64,000 nucleotides of DNA from an uncultured Bacteroidaceae bacterium (GTDB lineage Bacteria > Bacteroidota > Bacteroidia > Bacteroidales > Bacteroidaceae): contig CALUIR010000001.1 in the NCBI GenBank assembly GCA_944320785.1, positions 1-64,000 on the forward strand, written 5' to 3'. The notes below the pieces were generated by a model, which made no database searches, had not been told where the DNA came from, and was given only the letters and a program-made list of their open reading frames with translations. A program made the translations under genes and the position numbers. Position 1 is the first letter of the stretch; every line of letters starts with the position of its first letter. Positions 7,213-64,000 of this stretch are shown here, in pieces.

Positions 7213-7626
7213 GCAGGCAGCATTCTCCCAAGCAGCGGCAGAATCCTCTCTCCCTCCTGCGCAGGAGTTCCAACGCACCCGTATAAGAACTTCATCTTTA
7301 GCTTAAGGATGCATATCCTCAGCCTAAGGATATGTATCTTTAGCCTAAAGATGCACATCCTTAGCCTAAAGACAAAGAATCTGCCCGCATGAACGGGATT
7401 TCCCATGCGGACAAACGGAAGTCCCCTCCCGCATGAACCGGGAAATCTGCCCGCGTCCTCCGGCATCCTTACCGTGAATTATTCCTAAAAAAACGGCAAA
7501 GAGGCACACTCCATGGAAAATTAAATGAAGAAAAATTTCCCTATTTACACTAAATTGATTTCCTTTGTGCTGATATTATAAGGCACACCATTGCCTTCAT
7601 GTTTTTATTAATTAATTGTAATTGCC
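7213..7626. other. Gene-free gap with short repeats
   Basis: No credible coding frame. It holds the 21-bp palindromic array at 7294-7377 and then two copies of CCCGCATGAAC (near 7383 and 7428) next to G+C-rich inverted segments. An imperfect -7 candidate TTCCTTTG at 7560-7567 precedes the epimerase gene. Confidence 0.6.
7294..7377. repeat. Four tandem 21-bp units, each a short palindrome
   Basis: Units start at 7294, 7315, 7336 and 7357. Each begins with a 17-nt inverted repeat of the form ATCTTTA-GCC-TAAAGAT plus a 4-nt linker. Arms vary between units (TTTA/TAAA versus CCT/AGG) but mostly keep their self-complementarity. Confidence 0.75.
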
Positions 7627-12206: not shown

Positions 12207-12242
12207 AAAAAGGTTGCTCCCGCTATGGGAGCAACCTTTTTT
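12207..12242 (+). terminator. Intrinsic terminator of the decarboxylase operon
   Basis: The arms AAAAGGTTGCTCCC and GGGAGCAACCTTTT flank a 5-nt loop and run into a T tract. Confidence 0.9.
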
Positions 12243-12742
12243 GGTCCAAACCTCCAAAGAAAGTATCCAAAACCTTGGAAGGTTTTCGGAAAGCATTGGA
12301 TGGTTCTGCAAAATCATTGAAAAAATGCTCATCTTCTGACCCTGGGACATCTGCGACAAGCAATAAATTCGACATAAATGCCTTCATATTGACGGCAATT
12401 TATCAAACAGGCTGCTACTCCAGCACCTTTGGTTCATCAAGCACGTCACTACAAAGCTATTGCCGTTGCAACTTTCTTGATGACGGGGTACAATATATCC
12501 ATTTCAGAACAACACAAACAACTTCATCTTCCAGTTACTTGCAGAACATAACTGTTCATCGAAGTGTAAAAGGAACATCCTCCTCCAGAAAGACAATTTC
12601 TGTAACTGAAGTCAATAAGGATTGCCCAAGCCAAAAGATCGGTTTCGCACATGCGCACGCAACTTTTACTTTCAAATGCCTGCAAACCGTATTTCCAAGA
12701 TGCCTTATGGCCATCCATGACGCATACTACAAACCATCTTCC
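12243..12742. other. Gene-free gap
   Basis: Apart from the 21-bp-period array at 12259-12330 I see nothing recognisable. The remainder is less G+C-rich than its neighbours. The long plus-strand frame crossing it runs antisense through panD and panC and is not credible; a 64-codon minus frame resembles nothing I know. Confidence 0.55.
12259..12330 (+). repeat. 21-bp-period degenerate repeat, locus A
   Basis: Three units in exact 21-bp register (anchor C at 12273, 12294, 12315) of the form C-N-TTGGA-N-GGTT. The best unit holds the inverted repeat AAACCTTGGAAGGTTT. On the plus strand the frame reads K-T-L-E-G-F-R, K-A-L-D-G-S-A, K-S-L-K-K-C-S. Confidence 0.75.
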
Positions 12743-21292: not shown

Positions 21293-21370
21293 TTCACCCA
21301 ATAAAATCCGGAATTTTACAGGAAAAATGCACGCACTTTACCTGTAAAATTTGTGGTTTTATTGGGTGAA
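21293..21370. repeat. 78-nt near-perfect hairpin with conserved loop, copy 1
   Basis: The outer arms TTCACCCAATAAAA (21293-21306) and TTTTATTGGGTGAA (21357-21370) and inner arms GAATTTTACAGG (21311-21322) and CCTGTAAAATT (21341-21351) enclose the 18-nt loop AAAAATGCACGCACTTTA. The 25 nt at 21321-21345 recur unchanged at 56298-56322. Confidence 0.85.
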
Positions 21371-21452
21371 ATCCCGAAGGTTCCCGGTTTCAGGCTCCAG
21401 CGTCCGGCAAAAGCGCAAAACCTTGCCCCTCAATGGGTATGGCCAGCTCTAC

Positions 21453-21552
21453 GAACTTTTCCGAAAAGTTCAGCAACATTCCGCTGAAACCTTCCATAGT
21501 TTCATGCAAAACTTCCCAAGGTTTTTGAAAAGCCTTGGGAAGTTTTCCGGGA
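21453..21552 (-). repeat. 21-bp-period degenerate repeat, locus B
   Basis: Read on the minus strand, four to five consecutive 21-nt units of the form AAACNTNGGAAGGTTTNNC. The frame reads G-K-L-P-K-A-F, Q-K-P-W-E-V-L, H-E-T-M-E-G-F, S-G-M-L-L-N-F, S-E-K-F-V-E-L. It contains a 14-bp perfect hairpin (21508-21521 with 21533-21546, 11-nt loop). Confidence 0.75.
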
Positions 21553-38971: not shown

Positions 38972-39248
38972 ATGCATCGGCGGGAGATTTCATAGCATCA
39001 TTTATGCATTTCCAAGAAATTTATGCTCGCTGGAATGCACCAGATGCCTAAGGCATGCCGCCCTTCAAGACAAGAATGGCCGGACACATGACACCCCACT
39101 ACAAAGGGGGGGCAAAACCGTTGCTGCTTCCATCATCCTTCATTTTACGGCAAAAATAATCATTTTGTTCATCATAAAAGGAAAAAAAGGCAAACGATGC
39201 GCCGCATGCCATCAATATTCCAGGACATCAAAACGAGCTTGCTTTTAT

Positions 39249-39332
39249 ACGATTACTAATCGTCAAGCGATACGATTACTAATCGTCAAGCGATACGATT
39301 ACTAATCGTCACGCATTACGATTACTAATCGT
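39249..39332. repeat. Four-copy palindrome array at 23-bp spacing
   Basis: The 15-nt palindrome ACGATTACTAATCGT (7-nt arms around a central C) occurs without change at 39249, 39272, 39295 and 39318, each followed by an 8-nt linker close to CAAGCGAT. Confidence 0.92.
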
Positions 39333-39339
39333 GCGGAAA

Positions 39340-39424
39340 ACTGTTCCTGAAAAATCAGGAAAACTTCATGGAAGATTCCGAAAAACCTTTGAAGGTTTCC
39401 GCCAAAACATCAGAGGGCTCCCAA
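39340..39424 (+). repeat. 21-bp-period degenerate repeat, locus C
   Basis: Directly follows the palindrome array. Units ATGGAAGATTCCGAAAAAC, TTTGAAGGTTTCCGCCAAAAC and ATCAGAGGGCTCCCAAAG are in 21-bp register. The plus-strand frame reads G-K-L-H-G-R-F, R-K-T-F-E-G-F, R-Q-N-I-R-G-L. Confidence 0.7.
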
Positions 39425-39492
39425 AGCCCGCGCTCAAGGGATGCCCCATGTTTTTCTTGCGGGATTATGCCCCGCAAATGAATTTGTTTTTG

Positions 39493-39500
39493 TACTTTTG
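39493..39500 (+). promoter_or_regulatory. Bacteroidota -7 element for the LysM gene
   Basis: TACTTTTG matches TAnnTTTG, 35 nt before the ATG at 39536. Confidence 0.6.
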
Positions 39501-39535
39501 TTCGATATTAAGTTTTCTCACACAAAAAAGCATCT

Positions 39536-41356
39536 ATGAAACTGATAAACCGCCTGCTCCTCTTGCTGCTTCTGGCAAGCATGCCGCACGGGCGCGCCCT
39601 TGCGCAAAGCAACGGCGGCCCAAACCCTGCCTGCTTCCTCCACACGGTGCAGAAAGGGCAAAGCCTCTACTCCATTTCCAGCATCTACCAAGTGAGCCAG
39701 GACGACATCATCCGCCTCAACCCCGGATGCGAAACGAGGATATATGCCGGGCAAACGTTGAAAATCCCGCAGGCACAGGGGCAAAGCATGCCGCAATACC
39801 ATACCATACAGGCGCACGAAACGCTCTACCAGTTGACCGTGAAATACGGCGTGCCCGCGCAAAGGATTTGCCAGGCCAACCCCGGGCTGAGCGCGCAAAA
39901 CTTCAAAATCGGCCAAGTCATCCTCATCCCGGTTGCGGAAAAAGAAAACCCGGCCTCCACACAGTCCGCACAACCCGAAAGGGAAACCACGGCGCAACAA
40001 CCCGCCGGTGGCGGCAGCCCGTCCCGGTGCCGCGACATGCACAAGGTGAAAAGGAAAGAAACCATCTACAGCATCAGCCGCCAATACGGCATCAGCAAGG
40101 AGGAACTCATCGCCGCCAACCCGGAACTGAAGAAAGGGCTGAAACGCGGGAGCTTCCTTTGCATCCCCTACCCCAAAGAGGAAGAATCCATCCAGTTCGT
40201 GGAACAACCCCGGCAACAGCCGCAAGAAAAGGAAACCGGCAACCGGGAACTGTTTGCCGCCAACAAGGAAAAGGGAGAGAGGCCGGCAACCATAAAAGCG
40301 GCCATCGTCCTCCCCTTCCTCCCGCAAGGGAACAACGCAGCCACTTCATCCAAAATGGTGGAGTACTACGAAGGATTCCTCATCGCGGCGGACAGCCTGA
40401 AGAAACAGGGCGTCTCCATCGACCTGCATGTCTATGACTCCGGCAACAATGAAAGCACATTGTCCGCCGTGCTGAACCGCGAGGAACTGAAAGACATGCA
40501 CATCATCTTCGGCCCGATGCACGCCTCCCACATACAACCCTTGGCCAGCTTCGCGCACAAGCACGGGATCCACCTGGTCATCCCCTTCTCGTCAAAGGAC
40601 GACGAGGTGTTCCACAACCCGGAAATCTTCCAAATCAACACCCCGCAATCGTACCTCTATTCCGAAGTGTACGAACACTTCCTCCGCAAGTTCCCCAACG
40701 CCAACGTCGTGTTCCTGGAGAACAAAAGCGACACGAAAGGCAAAGCGCAGTTCATCGAAGGGCTGAAAGAAGAACTGGATGCGCACGCCATCCCCTATGC
40801 CACGGCCAGCGCCAGCAGCACGTCCGCAGCATTGAAGCCGCTGCTCCGGGCCGGGAAAGACAACATTTTCATCCCCGCCTCCGGCTCGAACGCCATCCTC
40901 ATCAACCTGTTGCCGCAACTGACCGTGCTGAAAAGGGAAAATGCAGGGGAAAGCATCAGCCTGTTCGGCTATCCCGAATGGCAGACGTACACGAAGGACC
41001 ACCTCGAACGCTTCTACGAACTGGACACTTATTTCTATTCTTCGTTCTACACCAACAACCTCTTCCCCGCCGCAGTCCAGTTCACTGCCAGCTACCGCAA
41101 CTGGTACGGGAAGGACATGGTCAACAGCTACCCGAAATTCGGAATGCTGGGATTCGACACCGGCTACTTTTTCCTGAAAGCCTTGTCGCAATACGGCACC
41201 GGCTTTGAAAGCAACTTGGGCGACATCCGCGTGCATCCCATCCAGACGGGTTTCAAGTTCGAGCGGGCAAGCAACTGGGGCGGGTTCATCAACCGGAAAG
41301 TGTTCTTCGTGCATTTCACGAAAGACTATGAACTGATAAAACTTGACTTTGAATAA
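39536..41356 (+). CDS. Three-LysM protein with periplasmic-binding-protein-like domain
   Basis: A 606-residue exported protein with a signal peptide (24 residues, ending A-L-A-Q). Three LysM peptidoglycan-binding repeats are seen near residues 36-78, 86-128 and 165-207 (H-T-V-Q-K-G-Q-S-L-Y-S-I, H-T-I-Q-A-H-E-T-L-Y-Q-L, H-K-V-K-R-K-E-T-I-Y-S-I). After a Gln/Glu-rich linker, residues from about 255 resemble a type I periplasmic ligand-binding fold (I-K-A-A-I-V-L-P-F-L-P, I-I-F-G-P-M-H-A-S-H, F-I-P-A-S-G-S-N-A). It probably sits in the periplasm bound to peptidoglycan. The ligand is unknown. The barrel gene follows 3 bp downstream. Confidence 0.85.
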   Translation: MKLINRLLLLLLLASMPHGRALAQSNGGPNPACFLHTVQKGQSLYSISSIYQVSQDDIIRLNPGCETRIYAGQTLKIPQAQGQSMPQYHTIQAHETLYQLTVKYGVPAQRICQANPGLSAQNFKIGQVILIPVAEKENPASTQSAQPERETTAQQPAGGGSPSRCRDMHKVKRKETIYSISRQYGISKEELIAANPELKKGLKRGSFLCIPYPKEEESIQFVEQPRQQPQEKETGNRELFAANKEKGERPATIKAAIVLPFLPQGNNAATSSKMVEYYEGFLIAADSLKKQGVSIDLHVYDSGNNESTLSAVLNREELKDMHIIFGPMHASHIQPLASFAHKHGIHLVIPFSSKDDEVFHNPEIFQINTPQSYLYSEVYEHFLRKFPNANVVFLENKSDTKGKAQFIEGLKEELDAHAIPYATASASSTSAALKPLLRAGKDNIFIPASGSNAILINLLPQLTVLKRENAGESISLFGYPEWQTYTKDHLERFYELDTYFYSSFYTNNLFPAAVQFTASYRNWYGKDMVNSYPKFGMLGFDTGYFFLKALSQYGTGFESNLGDIRVHPIQTGFKFERASNWGGFINRKVFFVHFTKDYELIKLDFE

Positions 41357-41359
41357 CGC

Positions 41360-42037
41360 ATGAGACACAAATCCTTTCTTCTCGCCATAGCCTTGCTGTG
41401 CTGCCTGCCCGCCTTTTCCCAAGTGGGAGAGCTAAGGAACAACTGGGCCATCGGCGTGCATGGCGGCGTCAACCTCAACAAAGTGTCTTTCACCTCCGAT
41501 GTCCGTGTCAAGGAAAAAATGCAAGTGGCGCCTGCCTGCGGGATAATGGTGCGCTACCTTTCCGAAAAATACTTCGCCATGCTCTGCGCCCTGCAAGTGG
41601 AAGTGAACTATTCGCAGAAAGGATGGCTGGAAGACCCGGACGGGAACCCATACACCTACGAACGGAAGATGCACTACCTGGACGTGCCTTTCCTCGTGCA
41701 TCTAGCCTACGGCAAGGAAGAACGCGGCGTGCAAGTGTTCCTCAACCTCGGCCCGCAAGTGAGTTTCTTGGTGAAGGAAAAGGAAATATACGGCGGCCAA
41801 TGGCAGGACTTCCCCTATGAACAACACGGGAAACTGGCCGACCGCAGCGTGGACTACGGCCTCACGGGCGGCGCAGGCATGGAGGTACGAACCGGCATCG
41901 GCCACTTCCAGATAGAAGGAAGATACTACTTCGGCCTGAATGACTTCTACAACAATTCCAAACGTGATTACTTCTCACGCTCTGCCCACAGCACCATCTC
42001 CGTGCGCCTCGCCTACCTGTTTGACATCACCAAGTAA
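41360..42037 (+). CDS. Outer-membrane beta-barrel protein (PorT/OMP_b-brl_2-like)
   Basis: A 225-residue protein with a signal peptide (M-R-H-K-S-F-L-L-A-I to A-F-S-Q). The mature part is a small beta-barrel: alternating strands such as A-I-G-V-H-G-G-V-N-L-N-K-V, V-E-V-N-Y-S-Q-K-G-W, F-Q-I-E-G-R-Y-Y-F-G-L and the final V-R-L-A-Y-L-F. It fits the PorT family of the T9SS in size and pattern, but family-level assignment from sequence alone is uncertain. It is coupled to the LysM gene, and a terminator follows at 42043-42066. Confidence 0.78.
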   Translation: MRHKSFLLAIALLCCLPAFSQVGELRNNWAIGVHGGVNLNKVSFTSDVRVKEKMQVAPACGIMVRYLSEKYFAMLCALQVEVNYSQKGWLEDPDGNPYTYERKMHYLDVPFLVHLAYGKEERGVQVFLNLGPQVSFLVKEKEIYGGQWQDFPYEQHGKLADRSVDYGLTGGAGMEVRTGIGHFQIEGRYYFGLNDFYNNSKRDYFSRSAHSTISVRLAYLFDITK

Positions 42038-42042
42038 ACAAA

Positions 42043-42066
42043 AAGCCTGCAAGTCCTTGCAGGCTT
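42043..42066 (+). terminator. Terminator-like hairpin
   Basis: AAGCCTGCAA and TTGCAGGCTT flank a 4-nt loop after the barrel gene; the T tract is short. Confidence 0.7.
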
Positions 42067-42090
42067 CGCCGTATTTCTTGGGAAAGTTGC

Positions 42091-42543
42091 TCAACGAAGG
42101 CGGTCGGCGGCACGCACCAGCACTTCGTCCTTGCCGATGGCGCGGATGGCCAGATAGTTCAGCACCAAAGAGACAAAGGGCAGGCAAAGCCCCCACGACA
42201 GGTGGAACGAGGCATCCAAACGGCTCCTGAACACAAACAGGAAGGCCACGAACGCCAAATAGTAACCCAACAGCAACAGGCTGTTGAAGATGGTCATGCG
42301 GATTTGCAGGACACGGTTGCGGAAAAGGAAAATGGTGCCCAAGGCCACGATGGCGGAAAACAGCAGAAGGGCAAACATCCCCCACGAGGAAAGAAGGCGG
42401 CCGTCCTCCATCCGCACGCCAAGGTTCGTGAAGCCGGCCTCGAAACCGTTCGGGCAAAGGTAGCTGCCCACCGGGATGCACAAAGCCACCACCAGCAGGA
42501 TGGCCACCAACAATAGGTAAACACTCTGTATTCGCTGTATCAT
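42091..42543 (-). CDS. DUF4293 membrane protein
   Basis: A 150-residue protein with four predicted membrane helices (starting M-I-Q-R-I-Q-S-V-Y-L-L-L-V-A-I-L), matching the Bacteroidota-specific DUF4293 family. Function unknown. It follows rpoZ in the minus-strand bamD-rpoZ order often seen in Bacteroidales, but a strong terminator-like hairpin at 42567-42604 lies between the two. Confidence 0.87.
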   Translation of the reverse strand: MIQRIQSVYLLLVAILLVVALCIPVGSYLCPNGFEAGFTNLGVRMEDGRLLSSWGMFALLLFSAIVALGTIFLFRNRVLQIRMTIFNSLLLLGYYLAFVAFLFVFRSRLDASFHLSWGLCLPFVSLVLNYLAIRAIGKDEVLVRAADRLR

Positions 42544-42566
42544 GATTCTTCGTCTTTTTCGGTTAC

Positions 42567-42604
42567 AAAAAAGGCCGCCAATGCACCGGCAATGGCAGGC
42601 CTTT
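42567..42604 (-). terminator. Intrinsic terminator-like hairpin between rpoZ and DUF4293
   Basis: On the minus strand AAAGGCC-t-GCCATTGC pairs imperfectly with GCATTGGC-GGCCTTT, followed by T residues. It would limit read-through into the DUF4293 gene, whose ATG is 24 nt further on. Confidence 0.7.
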
Positions 42605-42616
42605 CCATGCTAATGG

Positions 42617-42952
42617 TTATTGCAGTTTATCTTTCTCCTTTGCCGGGTTGCGGAAATACACTTTCCCCTCAACATATTCCTGCGTGGCAATCAAGGTGGG
42701 TTTCGGAAGTTTCTCGTAATAGCGGGAGATTTCTATCTGTTCCCTGTTCTCGAACACCTCCTCCAGATTGTCGTTGTAGGAAGCAAATTCCTGGAGTTTC
42801 TTCGACAAGTCGTTCTTGATTTCCTGGCTGATCTGGTTGGCACGCTTGGAAATGATGGCCACCGTCTCGTAAATGTTGCCGGTATCGGCGCACAATTCCA
42901 TCAAGTCACGCGTCACCGTGTTGGTAGGAGCATTTGTCTTTTTATAATCCAT
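42617..42952 (-). CDS. rpoZ: DNA-directed RNA polymerase omega subunit (Bacteroidota type)
   Basis: A 111-residue omega/RPB6-like protein. T-R-D-L-M-E-L-C near 14 and the conserved helix I-Y-E-T-V-A-I-I-S-K-R-A-N-Q-I-S near 27 place it with the Bacteroidota omega family. It helps fold and assemble the beta-prime subunit. It starts 16 bp after bamD and lies in the same operon. Confidence 0.9.
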   Translation of the reverse strand: MDYKKTNAPTNTVTRDLMELCADTGNIYETVAIISKRANQISQEIKNDLSKKLQEFASYNDNLEEVFENREQIEISRYYEKLPKPTLIATQEYVEGKVYFRNPAKEKDKLQ

Positions 42953-42968
42953 AGTCCTCTTTTATAAA

Positions 42969-43781
42969 TTATTCTTTGATGTTTTTCCTTGAGTTTTCAA
43001 ATATCTCGTCCGCTTCTTTCTTGTACTTGCTGTCCGGGAACTCGTTGGTGAACGCGTAATACTCGTCCACTGTCTCGCGGTAGCGTTCCTGCTGCTTTTC
43101 ATAAACGCTCTGCACGGCCATCTGGTACCTCGCCCGGAGAATCAGGATGGAAAGGTCCTCGCGCAAGGCCGTGTAAGGGTAATCCTTCAAGGCGTTCTGC
43201 GCCGTCACCACGCACGACAAGTAGTTGTTTCCCATATAGTTGCCCAAATCGTAATACAATTTGGCGGCATAATAGTCTTTCCACACCAGCTTGTCCTGCA
43301 ACTGGAAAATCATCTCCTGCGCATCGTCCTTCTTGTCGCTCAGGGGGTAATACTCCATGAACAGTTGCAATTCCTGGATGGCAGCATACGTGCCTGACTG
43401 GTCCAGACGCGGTTCGGGCGAATCCAGGAACAAGGCCCGGCCCGCATTGAAACGTGAAAGTTCCGCATACGTGCCGCGAGGGTACGTGTTGTAATACGTG
43501 GTGAAATAATGGGAAGAAGTGGTGTAATCTTCTTGGCTGAAGTAAGTCATGCCCAGCATGAACAGGGACTCTTCCGCCTTGTCCGTGCCTTTCATGATGG
43601 TAATCAACTCTTCCAGCAAAGTGGCCGCCTTGGAGTATTTCCCGCTCATGTAGTAAGCCTTGGCCACCTCGTATTTGTATTCATAATCCGTGCATTTCAC
43701 AATCCGGTTGTATTCCCCGCAGGAGGAGAACAGCAACGCCATTGCCAGCACGATAACGACACTCCACTTCATTTTATTCAA
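42969..43781 (-). CDS. bamD: Outer-membrane assembly lipoprotein BamD
   Basis: A 270-residue lipoprotein (lipobox F-S-S-C, Cys21). Five TPR-like repeats follow, with A-K-A-Y-Y-M-S-G-K-Y-S-K-A-A-T-L-L-E near 42 and S-L-F-M-L-G-M-T-Y-F near 77, the layout of BamD/YfiO. It forms the essential core of the BAM complex that inserts outer-membrane barrels. A start three codons later (43772, M-K-W-S-V-V) is equally possible, since the -7 element ends only about 11 nt upstream of 43781. Confidence 0.9.
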   Translation of the reverse strand: MNKMKWSVVIVLAMALLFSSCGEYNRIVKCTDYEYKYEVAKAYYMSGKYSKAATLLEELITIMKGTDKAEESLFMLGMTYFSQEDYTTSSHYFTTYYNTYPRGTYAELSRFNAGRALFLDSPEPRLDQSGTYAAIQELQLFMEYYPLSDKKDDAQEMIFQLQDKLVWKDYYAAKLYYDLGNYMGNNYLSCVVTAQNALKDYPYTALREDLSILILRARYQMAVQSVYEKQQERYRETVDEYYAFTNEFPDSKYKKEADEIFENSRKNIKE

Positions 43782-43791
43782 AAATAGTGTG

Positions 43792-43799
43792 CAAATGTA
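43792..43799 (-). promoter_or_regulatory. Bacteroidota -7 element for the bamD operon
   Basis: TACATTTG on the minus strand, immediately upstream of bamD; it implies a very short leader. Confidence 0.55.
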
Positions 43800-44027
43800 C
43801 GGATAGGAATTGAATCATGCAACGAATCGCGCCTTTTTAATACTATTTACCAAGGGAAACCGGGAGTTGGCCGCAGCAAAGCACGAGTTTGTCACGCCAA
43901 AATGGGAATTGGAGGGGGCGGCAAACCAAGGGCATCACCGGGAAATGGCCGGAAAAGCAAGCAAGCAGGGCCGCACATCCAAGAAAAATGCGTAATTTTA
44001 CGGCGGAAAACCAAAACAGGATACAGG

Positions 44028-46058
44028 ATGGACTTTGAACTGACCTCTGAATACAAGCCCACCGGCGACCAGCCGGAAGCCATTGCCCAACTGACAGAAG
44101 GCGTGCTGCACGGCATGCCGGCACAGACTTTATTGGGCGTGACCGGCTCCGGGAAGACATTCACCATCGCCAACGTCATCGCCAACGTCAACAAGCCCAC
44201 TTTGGTGCTGAGCCACAACAAGACGCTGGCCGCCCAGCTGTACAGCGAGTTCAAGGGATTCTTCCCGCACAACGAGGTGGAATACTACGTGTCCTACTAC
44301 GACTATTACCAGCCGGAGGCGTACATTCCCTCCACCGACACCTACATCGAAAAGGACCTTTCCATCAACGATGAGATTGACAAGCTGCGGCTGGCCACCA
44401 CCTCCGCCCTGCTCACCGGGCGAAAGGACGTGGTGGTCATCTCGTCCGTGTCCTGCATCTACGGCATGGGCAACCCCGCCGACTTCTACGAGAACGTCAT
44501 CGAGATTGAACAAGGGCGCCCATTGAGCCGCAACGTGTTCCTCCGCCGCTTGGTGGAATGCCTCTACCTGCGCAACGACATCGACCTGCAGCGCGGGAAC
44601 TTCCGCGTGAAGGGCGACACGATTGACGTGTATCTCGCCTACGCCGACACCGTCATCCGCGTGACGTTCTGGGGAGACGAGATAGACAGCATCGAGGAAA
44701 TAGACCCGCTGAGCGGCCTGCGCACCGCATCTTTCAGCCAATACAAGATTTACCCCGCCAACCTTTTCATGACCACCAAGGACAAAACCCTGCGGGCCAT
44801 CCGGGGAATAGAAGACGACCTGGCCAAACAGGTGGAATACTTCCGCTCCATCGGAAAGGAGATGGAAGCCAAAAGGCTCTATGAACGGGTGTCCTACGAC
44901 CTGGAGATGATACGCGAGTTAGGCCATTGCGCGGGCATCGAGAATTATTCGCGCTACTTCGACGGACGCGAGGCAGGCACGCGCCCTTACTGCCTGCTCG
45001 ATTTCTTCCCCGAAGACTTCCTCCTCGTCATCGATGAAAGCCACGTCACCGTCCCCCAACTGCAGGGCATGTATGCAGGCGACCGCGCCCGCAAGATCAA
45101 CCTTGTGGAATACGGCTTCCGCCTTCCCGCCGCCTTGGACAACCGCCCGCTCACGTTCGACGAGTTCAACAAAATGGCCAAACAAATCATCTATGTCAGC
45201 GCCACGCCCGCCGACTACGAACTGATGCAAAGCGAGGGCATCGTGGTGGAACAGGTCATCCGGCCCACCGGCCTGTTAGACCCCGTCATCGAAGTGCGCC
45301 CCAGCCTCAACCAGATTGACGACCTCATGGAGGAAATCCAACAACGCATCGAGAAAGATGAACGGACGTTGGTCACCACCCTCACCAAGCGGATGGCCGA
45401 AGAACTGACGGACTACCTGCTGAAGAACGGGGTGCGCTGCAACTACATCCACAGCGATGTGGACACCTTGGAGCGGGTGAAAATCATGAACGACCTCCGC
45501 GAAGGGCTTTACGATGTGCTGGTGGGCGTCAATTTGTTGAGGGAAGGGCTGGACCTCCCCGAAGTGTCGCTCGTGGCCATCTTGGATGCCGACAAGGAAG
45601 GCTTCCTGCGCTCCCACCGCTCCCTGACGCAAACGGCAGGCCGCGCCGCCCGCAACATCAACGGGAAAGTCATCATGTATGCCGACCGCATCACGGAAAG
45701 CATGCAGAAAACCATCGATGAAACCAACCGCCGCCGCGAGAAGCAACTGGCCTACAACGAAGCGCACGGCATCACGCCCCGGCAGATACACAAGAAACGC
45801 CAAGCAGCGCTTCTCCCCAACGAAGCGGAAAACCGCCCCGCCGAACCGAAAGCTTATGTGGAGCCGGACGGCATCAACGTGGCCGCCGACCCCGTGGTGC
45901 AGTACATGACCCGCCCCCAACTGGAAAAGAACATCGAGGCCGTGCGGAAAAGCATGTACGAAGCCGCCAAGAAACTGGACTTCATCGAGGCGGCACGCTA
46001 CCGCGACGAACTGCAGAAATTAGAGGACCTGCTGAAAGAAAAGTTCCCGGCAACTTGA
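44028..46058 (+). CDS. uvrB: Excinuclease ABC subunit B
   Basis: A 676-residue helicase-like repair protein of normal length. Walker A G-V-T-G-S-G-K-T lies at 37-44, the beta-hairpin segment Y-Y-D-Y-Y-Q-P-E-A-Y near 95, Walker B V-I-D-E-S-H near 340, helicase motif VI Q-T-A-G-R-A-A-R-N near 540, and a C-terminal UVR motif for UvrC binding (A-A-R-Y-R-D-E-L-Q-K-L). I start at 44028 (M-D-F-E-L-T-S-E-Y-K-P-T-G-D-Q-P); upstream codons in frame are not homologous. A weak -7 (TAATTTTA, 43993-44000) precedes it. Confidence 0.95.
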   Translation: MDFELTSEYKPTGDQPEAIAQLTEGVLHGMPAQTLLGVTGSGKTFTIANVIANVNKPTLVLSHNKTLAAQLYSEFKGFFPHNEVEYYVSYYDYYQPEAYIPSTDTYIEKDLSINDEIDKLRLATTSALLTGRKDVVVISSVSCIYGMGNPADFYENVIEIEQGRPLSRNVFLRRLVECLYLRNDIDLQRGNFRVKGDTIDVYLAYADTVIRVTFWGDEIDSIEEIDPLSGLRTASFSQYKIYPANLFMTTKDKTLRAIRGIEDDLAKQVEYFRSIGKEMEAKRLYERVSYDLEMIRELGHCAGIENYSRYFDGREAGTRPYCLLDFFPEDFLLVIDESHVTVPQLQGMYAGDRARKINLVEYGFRLPAALDNRPLTFDEFNKMAKQIIYVSATPADYELMQSEGIVVEQVIRPTGLLDPVIEVRPSLNQIDDLMEEIQQRIEKDERTLVTTLTKRMAEELTDYLLKNGVRCNYIHSDVDTLERVKIMNDLREGLYDVLVGVNLLREGLDLPEVSLVAILDADKEGFLRSHRSLTQTAGRAARNINGKVIMYADRITESMQKTIDETNRRREKQLAYNEAHGITPRQIHKKRQAALLPNEAENRPAEPKAYVEPDGINVAADPVVQYMTRPQLEKNIEAVRKSMYEAAKKLDFIEAARYRDELQKLEDLLKEKFPAT

Positions 46059-46065
46059 AAAACAT

Positions 46066-46095
46066 TTGCTTTTAAACAGAAAAAACTTATCTTTG
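46066..46095 (+). promoter_or_regulatory. Full Bacteroidota promoter upstream of two small membrane-protein genes
   Basis: TTG at 46066-46068, a 19-nt spacer and TATCTTTG at 46088-46095. It starts 8 nt after the uvrB stop and drives the small ORFs at 46113 and 46230. Confidence 0.8.
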
Positions 46096-46112
46096 CATCC
46101 CTCGCCGACATC

Positions 46113-54835: not shown

Positions 54836-55006
54836 CTTGCAGTCCCTCCAAAAAGAATGCACAGAACTTTTCAAAAAAAGTCCAGCAACAATTGCATGAA
54901 AGTTCAGGAACTTTTTCTAAAAACTTCATAGAAGAATTCCAAGATCCTCCCAAAGGTTCTTGAAAATCCTTCCAAGGTTTTGCCCCAAACCTTGGAAGGT
55001 TTCAGG
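54836..55006 (-). repeat. 21-bp-period degenerate repeat, locus D (largest)
   Basis: On the minus strand at least six consecutive units keep 21-nt spacing (one step is 22), of the form AAACCTTNGGAAGGNTTT. The best part reads G-K-T-L-E-G-F, S-R-T-F-G-R-I, L-E-F-F-Y-E-V, F-R-K-S-S before a stop. It contains a 13-bp perfect hairpin (54968-54980 with 54987-54999). Confidence 0.75.
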
Positions 55007-55058
55007 CAACGCCCGACACGCTTCCCCAGCGACCCTCCGGGGGATGAGAAGCCACAAT

Positions 55059-55116
55059 CCGCCAAATTCCTACCGAATTTGGCGGTTACACTCTCCAAAT
55101 TTGGCAGAATTTGGAG
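55059..55116 (+). promoter_or_regulatory. Twin palindromes overlapping the ATPase promoter
   Basis: CCGCCAAATTC/GAATTTGGCGG (55059-55069, 55075-55085, 11-bp arms) and CTCCAAATT/AATTTGGAG (55093-55101, 55108-55116, 9-bp arms). Both share the word CCAAATT, and the second covers the -33 TTG, as expected for an operator. Confidence 0.65.
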
Positions 55117-55144: not shown

Positions 55145-56266
55145 ATGATCAGCCGCATCATTAAAAACTCCATCTTGGCCGACTACCGCCGCAAAAAAGT
55201 CATCGTATTATTAGGCGCAAGGCAAGTAGGCAAAACCACGTTGCTCTCCGAATTGCAAGAAGGAAACGAGAAAACGCTTTTCCTGAACTGCGATAACATA
55301 GACGATGTTCTGGCACTGGAAGGAAAAACATCCACGGAACTGAAACAATTGTTGATGCCCTACCAATTAGTGTTCATTGACGAAGGCCAAAGAGTGAAGA
55401 ACATCGGGCTGACGCTGAAGATGATAGGCGACCTGAAACTGCAAACACAAGTTATCGTGACCGGCTCTTCCTCTCTCGACATGGCGAACGAAATCAACGA
55501 ACCGGCCACGGGAAGGCTGATTGAATACAACCTCTTCCCCTTTTCCTTGGCGGAATTGGCTCTGAACAGTTCGGAAAGAGAAGAAAACAGGCTGATAGAA
55601 AGCCGCATGATTTACGGCCTGTACCCAGAAGTAGTGACGGAACCCGGCGATGCGAAGCGCACTTTAATGTCACTGACCAACAACTATTTATACAAAGACC
55701 TGTTCGCTTACAAAGGCATCAAGAAACCCGAACTAATCCAAAAGCTGGCAAGGGCGTTGGCATTGCAGTTAGGCAGCGAAGTGTCCTACAACGAATTAAG
55801 CAACTTGCTGGGCGTGGACAAAAGCACGGTGGAAAGTTACATCAACCTGTTAGAGAAATGTTTTGTCGTGTTCAAGTTGGATTCCTTCAGCCGGAACCTT
55901 CGGAATGAGATAAAAAAGGGAAAGAAAATCTACTTTTACGACAACGGCGTGAGAAATGCCATCCTGTCCAACTTCGCTCCCTTGGAACTGAGGAACGATG
56001 CCGGGGCATTGTGGGAAAATCTCATGGTGATCGAAAGGGTGAAACGCAATGCCTATTCCGGCAATTTCGCGCAATTGTTCTTTTGGCGAACGCACGAACA
56101 GCAAGAGATTGACTTGATTGAGGAAGAAGACGGCATGCTGCACGCCTTTGAATTCAAATGGAACGGAAAAGCAAAAAGCAGCCAACCCAAAACATTTGCG
56201 AACTCTTACCCCAACTCCACTTATGAAATCATCACGCCGGAGCATTATTGGAGATTTGTGAGATAA
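55145..56266 (+). CDS. AAA ATPase with DUF4143 domain
   Basis: A 373-residue protein of the AAA_14/DUF4143 family. Walker A G-A-R-Q-V-G-K-T-T lies at 24-32, Walker B L-V-F-I-D-E-G-Q near 75-82, sensor-like V-T-G-S-S-S near 100, a winged-helix segment (V-S-Y-N-E-L-S-N-L-L-G-V-D-K-S-T-V) near 218-235, and a C-terminal nuclease-like core F-W-R-T-H-E-Q-Q-E-I-D-L-I-E to A-F-E-F-K-W. Such stand-alone ATPases are frequent in Bacteroidales and of unclear role. It is flanked by repeats and stands alone under its own palindromic promoter. Confidence 0.88.
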   Translation: MISRIIKNSILADYRRKKVIVLLGARQVGKTTLLSELQEGNEKTLFLNCDNIDDVLALEGKTSTELKQLLMPYQLVFIDEGQRVKNIGLTLKMIGDLKLQTQVIVTGSSSLDMANEINEPATGRLIEYNLFPFSLAELALNSSEREENRLIESRMIYGLYPEVVTEPGDAKRTLMSLTNNYLYKDLFAYKGIKKPELIQKLARALALQLGSEVSYNELSNLLGVDKSTVESYINLLEKCFVVFKLDSFSRNLRNEIKKGKKIYFYDNGVRNAILSNFAPLELRNDAGALWENLMVIERVKRNAYSGNFAQLFFWRTHEQQEIDLIEEEDGMLHAFEFKWNGKAKSSQPKTFANSYPNSTYEIITPEHYWRFVR

Positions 56267-63574: not shown

Positions 63575-64000
63575 TTAATGTGCTTTCTCAAACTCCTGCA
63601 TGCAGCCAATCAAAGCCTGCACACTTTCTTTCGGCAACGCGTTGTAGCAGGATGCGCGGAAACCGCCCACCGAACGATGCCCCTTGATGCCGACCATGCC
63701 CCTTTCTGTGGCAAACTTCAGGAAGTCAGCTTCCAAGTCCTTGTATTCATCCTTCATGACAAAGCAGATGTTCATGTAAGAACGGTCGCCCTTGTCAGTC
63801 ACGGTGCCACGGAACAAGCGGTTACGGTCAATCTCCGCATAAAGCATGTCGGCTCTTTCCTTGGCACGGCGCGCCATTTCCTCCACGCCTCCTTGCGCTT
63901 TCAGCCAACGCAACGTTTGCAACGCTGCATAAATGGGAACGACAGGAGGGGTGTTGAACATGGAGCCGCCATCGATATGGGTCTGATAGTTCAGCATCGT
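63575..64000 (-). CDS. serC: Phosphoserine aminotransferase, N-terminal part missing at window edge
   Basis: The C-terminal ~140 residues of a PLP-dependent class V aminotransferase; the frame is open to the right edge. [18 protein letters not shown] near the edge and [15 protein letters not shown] near the C terminus are diagnostic of SerC; the PLP lysine lies outside the window. It converts 3-phosphohydroxypyruvate to phosphoserine and is upstream of serA by 55 bp in the same operon. Confidence 0.93.

Follow-up and report, generated by a model that had tools for sequence, protein, structure and literature searches.

Near-palindromic DNA units, spaced by close to two turns of the helix, form arrays dispersed through the intergenic DNA of an uncultured Bacteroidaceae bacterium from the gut and of its relatives, and, as far as sequence can tell, these arrays point to what may be a system for binding or copying DNA that has not been described before. 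On balance, if only just, we read them as composite miniature mobile elements that carry no genes, in which the dyads would be sites for a dimer and the cores would be copied or exchanged by a candidate trans-acting protein. The arrays came to notice at four gaps between genes (loci 1 to 4) in the window, a stretch of 64,000 nucleotides analysed as a whole. A preliminary description of the window had claimed a dispersed, intergenic and palindromic family with a pitch near two helical turns, all of which was borne out.

The word that the four gaps were said to share, AAACCTTNGAAGGTTT, is present in each of them, exactly at 12270, 39383 and 54987, and with 2 mismatches at 21487 and 21509. Allowing up to 3 mismatches on both strands, the window holds 14 matches, whereas 100 shuffles averaged 1.87 and never gave more than 7. 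When the whole genome (G000; 2.57 Mb in 50 contigs, a metagenome assembly that is ~84–85% complete) was searched on both strands with up to 2 mismatches, 135 matches were returned and 12 for a reversed-pattern control; AAACCTTNGAAGGTTT is nearly palindromic, so that a single place is often counted on both strands. The preliminary description had named the lack of a genome-wide excess as its own refutation, and the excess is there. Alignment of up to 8 kb around the matches listed (about 100 of the 135) gave 39 stretches. The A unit has a 16-bp near-palindrome and a 6-bp spacer, often TGCCCC, TGCATG or the reverse, and units stand in both orientations inside a single array. Neighbouring A units in 40 sequences lie 22 bp apart in 54 of 69 spacings, the others being 21 (10), 20 (1), 23 (1) and 43 bp (3). 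The tandem repetition first described therefore stands, while its 21-nt register gives way to one of mainly 22 bp; the copy at 12259..12330 keeps, by eye, a register of 21.

The units are near-palindromes in mosaics with unrelated words, which include ACGATTASTAATCGT (pitch 23) and ATCYYYARSYTRRRGAT (pitch 21). A units frequently adjoin, without a break in register, B units (GTTCATAGAAC type) and an end unit, CCTCCCAAAGGTT, and at part of the places C units (ACGATTACTAATCGT or its complement, at an exact 23-bp pitch). Genome-wide, the C word has 123 matches per strand with at most one mismatch, and its reversed control none. Locus 1 (12259..12330, plus strand) is an A-type array of ~3 units behind an intrinsic-terminator-like hairpin (~12207–12242), and the orthologous site in the sister species (G001) has a related, partly conserved array. 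Locus 2 (21453..21552, minus strand) has A-type units 22 bp apart; its counterpart in G001 combines A units with two C units, and C units occur there in G001 only. Near it, at 21293..21371, lies an inverted-repeat stretch of the AAAATTCCGGATTTTACCTG type (F-type units) with dyads ~11 bp apart. At locus 3, a C-type core of four ACGATTACTAATCGT units at exact 23-bp pitch (39247..39332, plus strand; 95% matches in TRF) is joined to B-type and A-type units (39333..39424, plus strand). Locus 4, on the minus strand, consists of B-type units (GTTCATAGAAC-like, pitch ~22) at 54836..54945, followed at 54946..55006 by the end unit CCTCCCAAAGGTT and two A-type units 22 bp apart. A further array, at 7294..7373 (plus strand), is of the same class as the four noted places. 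It is a D-type core of four units, each ATCYYYARSYTRRRGAT plus a purine-pyrimidine-purine-pyrimidine (RYRY) spacer, at an exact 21-bp pitch, and it is absent from the orthologous G001 site. One outer arm of CCCGCATG-type 22-bp units follows at 7374..7440 (plus strand, end approximate), and the opposite, degenerate arm lies at 7250..7293 (minus strand, ends approximate). No Rfam family reached its gathering score in the window. Elsewhere in G000, C1:154746-154870 (L085) carries six ACCCATGCATGGGT-type units at pitch 23, an unrelated word that occurs once in the 460 kb scanned. The window also has 69-bp tandem repeats at 67–605, within the ORF 33–1046, which resemble leucine-rich protein repeats of 23 residues, presumably of the BspA-type family.

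The pitch was measured by a lag spectrum, chosen to avoid picking words beforehand. Genes called by a home-made program based on codon usage were masked, and direct repeats agreeing in 12 of 16 bases were counted in non-coding DNA at lags of 10–60. The G000 sample was 849 kb read contiguously (about a third of the genome), of which 149 kb is non-coding. Lags 21, 22, 23 and 24 yielded 991, 427, 668 and 111 direct repeats, against a mean of 13 per lag in shuffled DNA. Near the doubles there were 541 at lag 42, 160 at 44 and 323 at 46, and the remaining lags from 10 to 41 gave 4 to 43. In G001 the counts at lags 21, 22 and 23 were 189, 448 and 479, the next lag besides doubles being 14 (107). Four further genomes of the family behaved similarly, with peaks at lag 23 (104) and 21 (46) in G324, where lags other than doubles reached up to 33–34, at lag 22 in G023 (105) and G033 (43, next 13), and at lags 44 (236) and 22 (92) in G003. 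The array words of these five further genomes (GAATATATACTGCA, TTGCGCAAGAC, GAGTATATATGG, TGAACATGCCATTCA, GCAACGTTCGTTGC and others) are mutually unrelated; the word list behind the lag peaks also includes a few stretches that resemble low complexity or missed coding. Among 20 other genera of the family, sampled at 0.2–5.7 kb of non-coding DNA each with a simpler gene mask, the top lag was 22 (117 hits; next lag 14, 64 hits), and 11 of the 20 genomes contribute at lags 21–23. For 20 other families of the order the top lag was 23 (114), nearly all from one genome, followed by lags 10 (85), 46 (77) and 16 (68). E. coli K-12, sampled over 100 kb of which only 8.6 kb is non-coding, has no lag above 6 hits, the value reached at lag 21. 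Arrays at lags 21–23 make up 4.4% of the non-coding DNA in the G000 sample and 6.1% in G001.

A nearly common pitch of unrelated words suggests one physical rule, probably helical phasing, acting on a whole bacterial repeat class. One reading of this, possible but in our judgement doubtful, is that the arrays are a family-wide, satellite-like DNA of the Bacteroidaceae, in which words may change freely while the pitch stays close to two helical turns, because each word would be read by a rapidly changing dimeric protein forming a phased filament. Newly arisen words would then spread over the chromosome and take over the sites of older ones, a turnover like that of eukaryotic centromeric satellites, and the D word would be read mainly as purine and pyrimidine. 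The D units had been selected by purine/pyrimidine pattern with 1–2 mismatches, so that the ratio of 142 transitions to 1 transversion, counted away from the unit centre, is biased by the selection.

The comparison of sister species bears on how words replace one another. It rests on one sister genome, and both G000 and G001 are incomplete metagenome assemblies (~85% complete); they are collinear over long stretches, mostly at 79–98% identity. D is present at none of the eight comparable orthologous G001 sites, which may reflect either a gain by G000 or a loss by G001. At one of them, C1:93455, G001 is 262 bases shorter than G000, at a zero-length gap. Inspection by eye of one clean filled/empty pair (C1:93358-93621) revealed neither a target duplication nor a sharp terminus. 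At three of the eight D sites (C1:74620, C1:163084 and C5:70954) the G001 core is instead a Q array (CTGTACARAYGNCGNCG type, pitch 21), with arms that are clearly alike on one side at C1:74620 and C5:70954 and partially alike at C1:163084. At C1:229525, G001 has another array, GCAACGTTCGTTGC, at pitch 22. A different core in the same place is thus seen for a minority only, since G001 shows no clear array at the remaining four. The converse case is a Q array of G001 (K11b 33664) whose G000 site is without an array. Cores that differ at the same place while their arms stay similar would record, naturally and in a bacterial chromosome, a competition among repeat words, and would offer a way towards the protein responsible for reading or copying these words.

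The C units differ between the species in another manner. Of 49 G000 units, 48 have G or C at the centre, where all 81 units of the G001 set have A or T. At six C sites both flanks could be compared; five have C units in both species and show the centre change in every case, and the sixth (C1:256718) has no C unit in G001. The change is also seen at C1:177450. In a separate observation, the stretch from 46100 to the window's end at 64000, and on to C1:74611, matches G001 at 92.4% and the adjoining 39272–46097 at 91.3%, while other long collinear stretches of the same G001 contig match at 81.7–85.8%; the 260-base upstream region of the gene at 55145 is identical in both species. Taken together, the higher match over 39272 to C1:74611 and these identical bases suggest that there may have been recent exchange between the species.

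Among genomes, the words are patchily distributed. With at most one mismatch, the A word is found 67 times in G000, 155 times in G001 and no more than 5 times, near control, in each of the other 59 genomes. At the same threshold, the Q word (CTGTACARAYGNCGNCG type) is found once in G000 (control 0) and 52 times in G001 (control 1). The sole Q-type array seen in G000, at C4:58940 (L201), may be what is left of this core, which G001 commonly carries, or a newcomer. The D pair pattern (up to 3 mismatches, per strand) was found 154 times in G000, 11 times in G023, twice in G014 and once in G001, with no match in the other 57 of the 61 genomes. The C pair pattern occurs in 6 of 399 genomes of the family, and a C scan of genome_contigs returned 62 stretches, all from records labelled Bacteroides, Phocaeicola or Paraprevotella. 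Cultured carriers of C pairs include Bacteroides sp. An322 and Phocaeicola intestinalis Sa1CVN1. Carriage by phages or plasmids was rejected, as the C and D pair patterns have no exact match in viral_contigs and the stretch 39200–39420 has no match to plasmids and phages at 1e-5. A search of E. coli genomes with locus 4 found no match.

These data also weigh on the idea that the arrays are host chromosome sites for a nucleoid or segregation protein whose specificity shifts between species, the sites following by selection and gene conversion. The nearly constant pitch, the dyad half-sites, the chromosome-wide dispersal and the C centre change at shared sites would all suit such a protein. However, the patchy occurrence among relatives (the 6 of 399 genomes above), the lack of a whole element at the orthologous C1:93455 site and the presence of several unrelated cores in one genome all suit selfish elements better; we regard this explanation as unlikely.

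Of the 23 D chains in the 849 kb (two of them single words), 19 are precisely four units long, and the D place C1:149651 has one unit only, with the usual ends kept. Although the spacers were not selected for it, all 59 are RYRY. Outward arms on both sides of 20 D arrays follow one consensus, AAAGAATTTGCCCG..TGAACCGGATTTCCC, which has CCCG-like words near positions 10, 32, 54 and 77, i.e. ~22 apart, and the body of the element is therefore roughly symmetric, with arms of pitch ~22 facing a core of pitch 21. The inverted arms extend ~60 bases around the D cores, and a sharp terminus was not found. C cores in G000 likewise have flanks that resemble each other on both sides, more weakly than those of D. 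In other genera the C core stands between different arms, roughly ATATAACTGC...GCAGTTATAT, and three D loci examined in G023 and G014 are without the CCCGCATG arms. Since the same cores thus occur with other arms or without the usual ones, cores and arms look like modules that may be separable.

The arrays might also be neutral minisatellites that arise by replication slippage, their pitch set by a ~22-base polymerase or repair step. Tandem units, the variable number of A and C units and the one single-unit D element fit this explanation, and the preliminary description had considered a minisatellite lineage. A classical minisatellite, however, is a head-to-tail repeat of one word with free copy number, while here units lie in both orientations, most D chains hold to four units and the D spacers are all RYRY. 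The same words also recur at dozens of places, and slippage leaves unexplained both the unrelated words at one pitch and the different cores of the sister species at the same place. We therefore think it rather improbable.

Strong paired dyads at the pitch were detected in 52 of 109 arrays of G000, against 22 of 545 control intervals, and in 24 of 50 arrays of G001, against 11 of 250; about half of the lag-detected G000 arrays (57 of 109) fall below the strong-dyad threshold. One might regard these dyads as RNA or cruciform hairpins that act as terminators or 3′ ends, and terminator arrays had been among the first suggestions. RNA folding does exceed that of shuffles (median z of −6.3 for C, −7.9 for D and −3.5 for A), as would be expected because palindromes do so in any case, and locus 1 lies behind its terminator-like hairpin. 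A check for the compensatory change that the preliminary description had proposed to look for in the palindromes, however, showed that the paired positions of the D units vary independently: the four variable pairs are Watson-Crick in 37, 62, 62 and 54 of 79 units, and 39.6, 63.3, 60.8 and 55.1 are expected without pairing. C variants are mostly asymmetric: in the G001 set 18 are so and only 1 is symmetric, and in G000 both of 2 are asymmetric. Changes at pair 5/12 of the A units are mostly single, with A-T double changes in 7 of 112, where ~2 are expected from column counts. Since the D halves are independent, duplex half-sites that would be read by the subunits of a dimer fit better than hairpins, and these sequence patterns favour a dimeric protein as the probable reader.

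The position of the arrays relative to genes, as called by our home-made, codon-usage based procedure, does not support terminators either. Within 460 kb, 27 of 28 A, C or D places are intergenic; at the other one, a lone C-like word falls inside a gene. In the 849 kb, the 15 C and 21 D arrays lie in 16 same-direction, 14 divergent and 4 convergent gaps and at 2 edges, for a background of 56% of bases in same-direction gaps, 26% in divergent and 13% in convergent ones and 4% at edges. There is a mild excess in divergent gaps and none in convergent gaps. The distance to gene starts is at least 197 bases for C (median 291) and 61 for D (median 164), with a median of 439 for A; the distance to stops is at least 70 (median 134) for C and 81 (median 141) for D. 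Hairpins are, on this evidence, a decidedly improbable explanation.

The heptapeptide reading of the first description, as the relic of a coding (coiled-coil) repeat, has short open stretches in one frame to recommend it and is almost certainly wrong, because the 22-bp pitch of the A units shifts the reading frame at each unit, other units of unrelated words keep pitches of 21 and 23, and dyad symmetry and units in both orientations contradict it.

We thus return to composite miniature mobile elements. Each has a core of mostly 2–5 dyad-symmetric units, flanked on one or both sides by arms in which other units follow one another at about 22 bp. Most probably, every dyad serves a dimeric protein as a site in duplex DNA, and a spacing near two helical turns would place neighbouring dimers on nearly the same face, where they could cooperate as in the synaptic array of a transposase or recombinase. 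A putative trans-acting protein would copy or exchange cores between elements and, if copying is indeed the cause, one core type would come to replace the others in each species. The protein-binding arrays that the preliminary description thought possible are part of this reading. Among the candidates tested, no transposase, recombinase or binding protein could be linked to the arrays.

We read the arrays as BIME/BrickBuilt-like in behaviour. BrickBuilt is the nearest known system in behaviour, and REP/BIME the nearest in mosaic design. BrickBuilt is a MITE of Porphyromonas gingivalis, itself a member of the Bacteroidales. According to the accessible part of its description, it comprises 23-nt tandem units in 19 intergenic copies bordered by a leader and a tail, with sites that are filled in some strains and empty in others, and with predicted stem loops; there is one unit family, with up to 22.8 copies, and 12-nt IS5-like ends, and 22- and 41-nt repeats are also mentioned for strain W83 (PMC4596501). 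On that partial account, the intergenic tandem 23-nt units, the bordering sequences, the filled and empty sites and the stem loops resemble our arrays, in which C units are 23 bp (others 21 or mainly 22), but here many unrelated units keep nearly one pitch, cores are mostly of 2–5 units, and differing cores lie between similar arms. The IS5-like ends, GAGACCTTTGCA, were found with at most one mismatch neither in the window nor within 250 bp of any of the 15 C and 21 D arrays. MITEs in general share with our arrays presence or absence at orthologous sites, as all eight comparable D sites differ.

REP/BIME elements are intergenic mosaics of short palindromic units in both orientations, with species-specific words, and are associated with RAYT (Y1) transposases. 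The palindromic A, B and C units in intergenic mosaics resemble them, whereas the pitch near two helical turns and the unrelated words in one array do not. The mosaics and their RAYT transposases are treated in PMC2817692 and PMC3733652. REP units are described as bearing a GTAG or CGTC tag at one end. A RAYT/Y1 transposase was rejected as the partner: four of six array-bearing genomes (G000, G001, G163 and G191, the first two only ~85% complete, so that a copy could have escaped there) have no match to Y1_Tnp (PF01797), and G126 and G324 have one each. Iterons and other phased protein-binding arrays have repeats about two helical turns apart that are bound cooperatively, iterons being located at replication origins. 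Their pitch is like that of our arrays; unlike these, iterons are not dispersed mosaics. TAACTGA heptamer direct repeats are patchy and mostly intergenic in Beggiatoaceae, Cyanobacteria and some Bacteroidetes and, in their main species, lie mostly within several nucleotides of a start codon, as far as the available text of PMC4679880 goes. Patchy, mostly intergenic tandem repeats that include Bacteroidetes are a likeness to our arrays, but on the same partial account the unit is a 7-nt direct repeat near starts, while C, D and A lie at the medians given above. None of the known elements compared fits exactly, in agreement with the preliminary description, which knew of no named element. Although they occupy ~4–6% of the sampled non-coding DNA in two species, no description of the arrays was found in the literature searched (most subscription papers and preprints lay outside the search), and the accessible parts of PMC4060949 and PMC5771137 do not mention the class.

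DUF4143/AAA ATPases were considered as proteins that read the arrays and rejected, as their promoter palindromes are, by eye, unlike the dispersed words, and such genes number only 2 in G000. At 12 DUF4143 loci of G000 and G001, 260 upstream bases were inspected by eye and held neither the C nor the D word. The orthologous pair L213/L214 (locus 4) alone has an A array there, which lies upstream of the palindromes on the promoter side. In the window, these palindromes (CGCCAAATT..AATTTGGCGG and TCCAAATTTGGCAGAATTTGGA, at 55055–55115) lie directly upstream of the DUF4143 ATPase gene at 55145–56266, and several other DUF4143 genes of G001 have, by eye, short repeats at their promoters. Finally, in uncultured Bacteroides SI.O39 (L107, L120, L136, L161 and others) the C core lies within a longer inverted element, the outer part of which, GCAACCGG..TTTTCAGACTGACCC, recurs at many loci and is a candidate lead to a partner insertion sequence.
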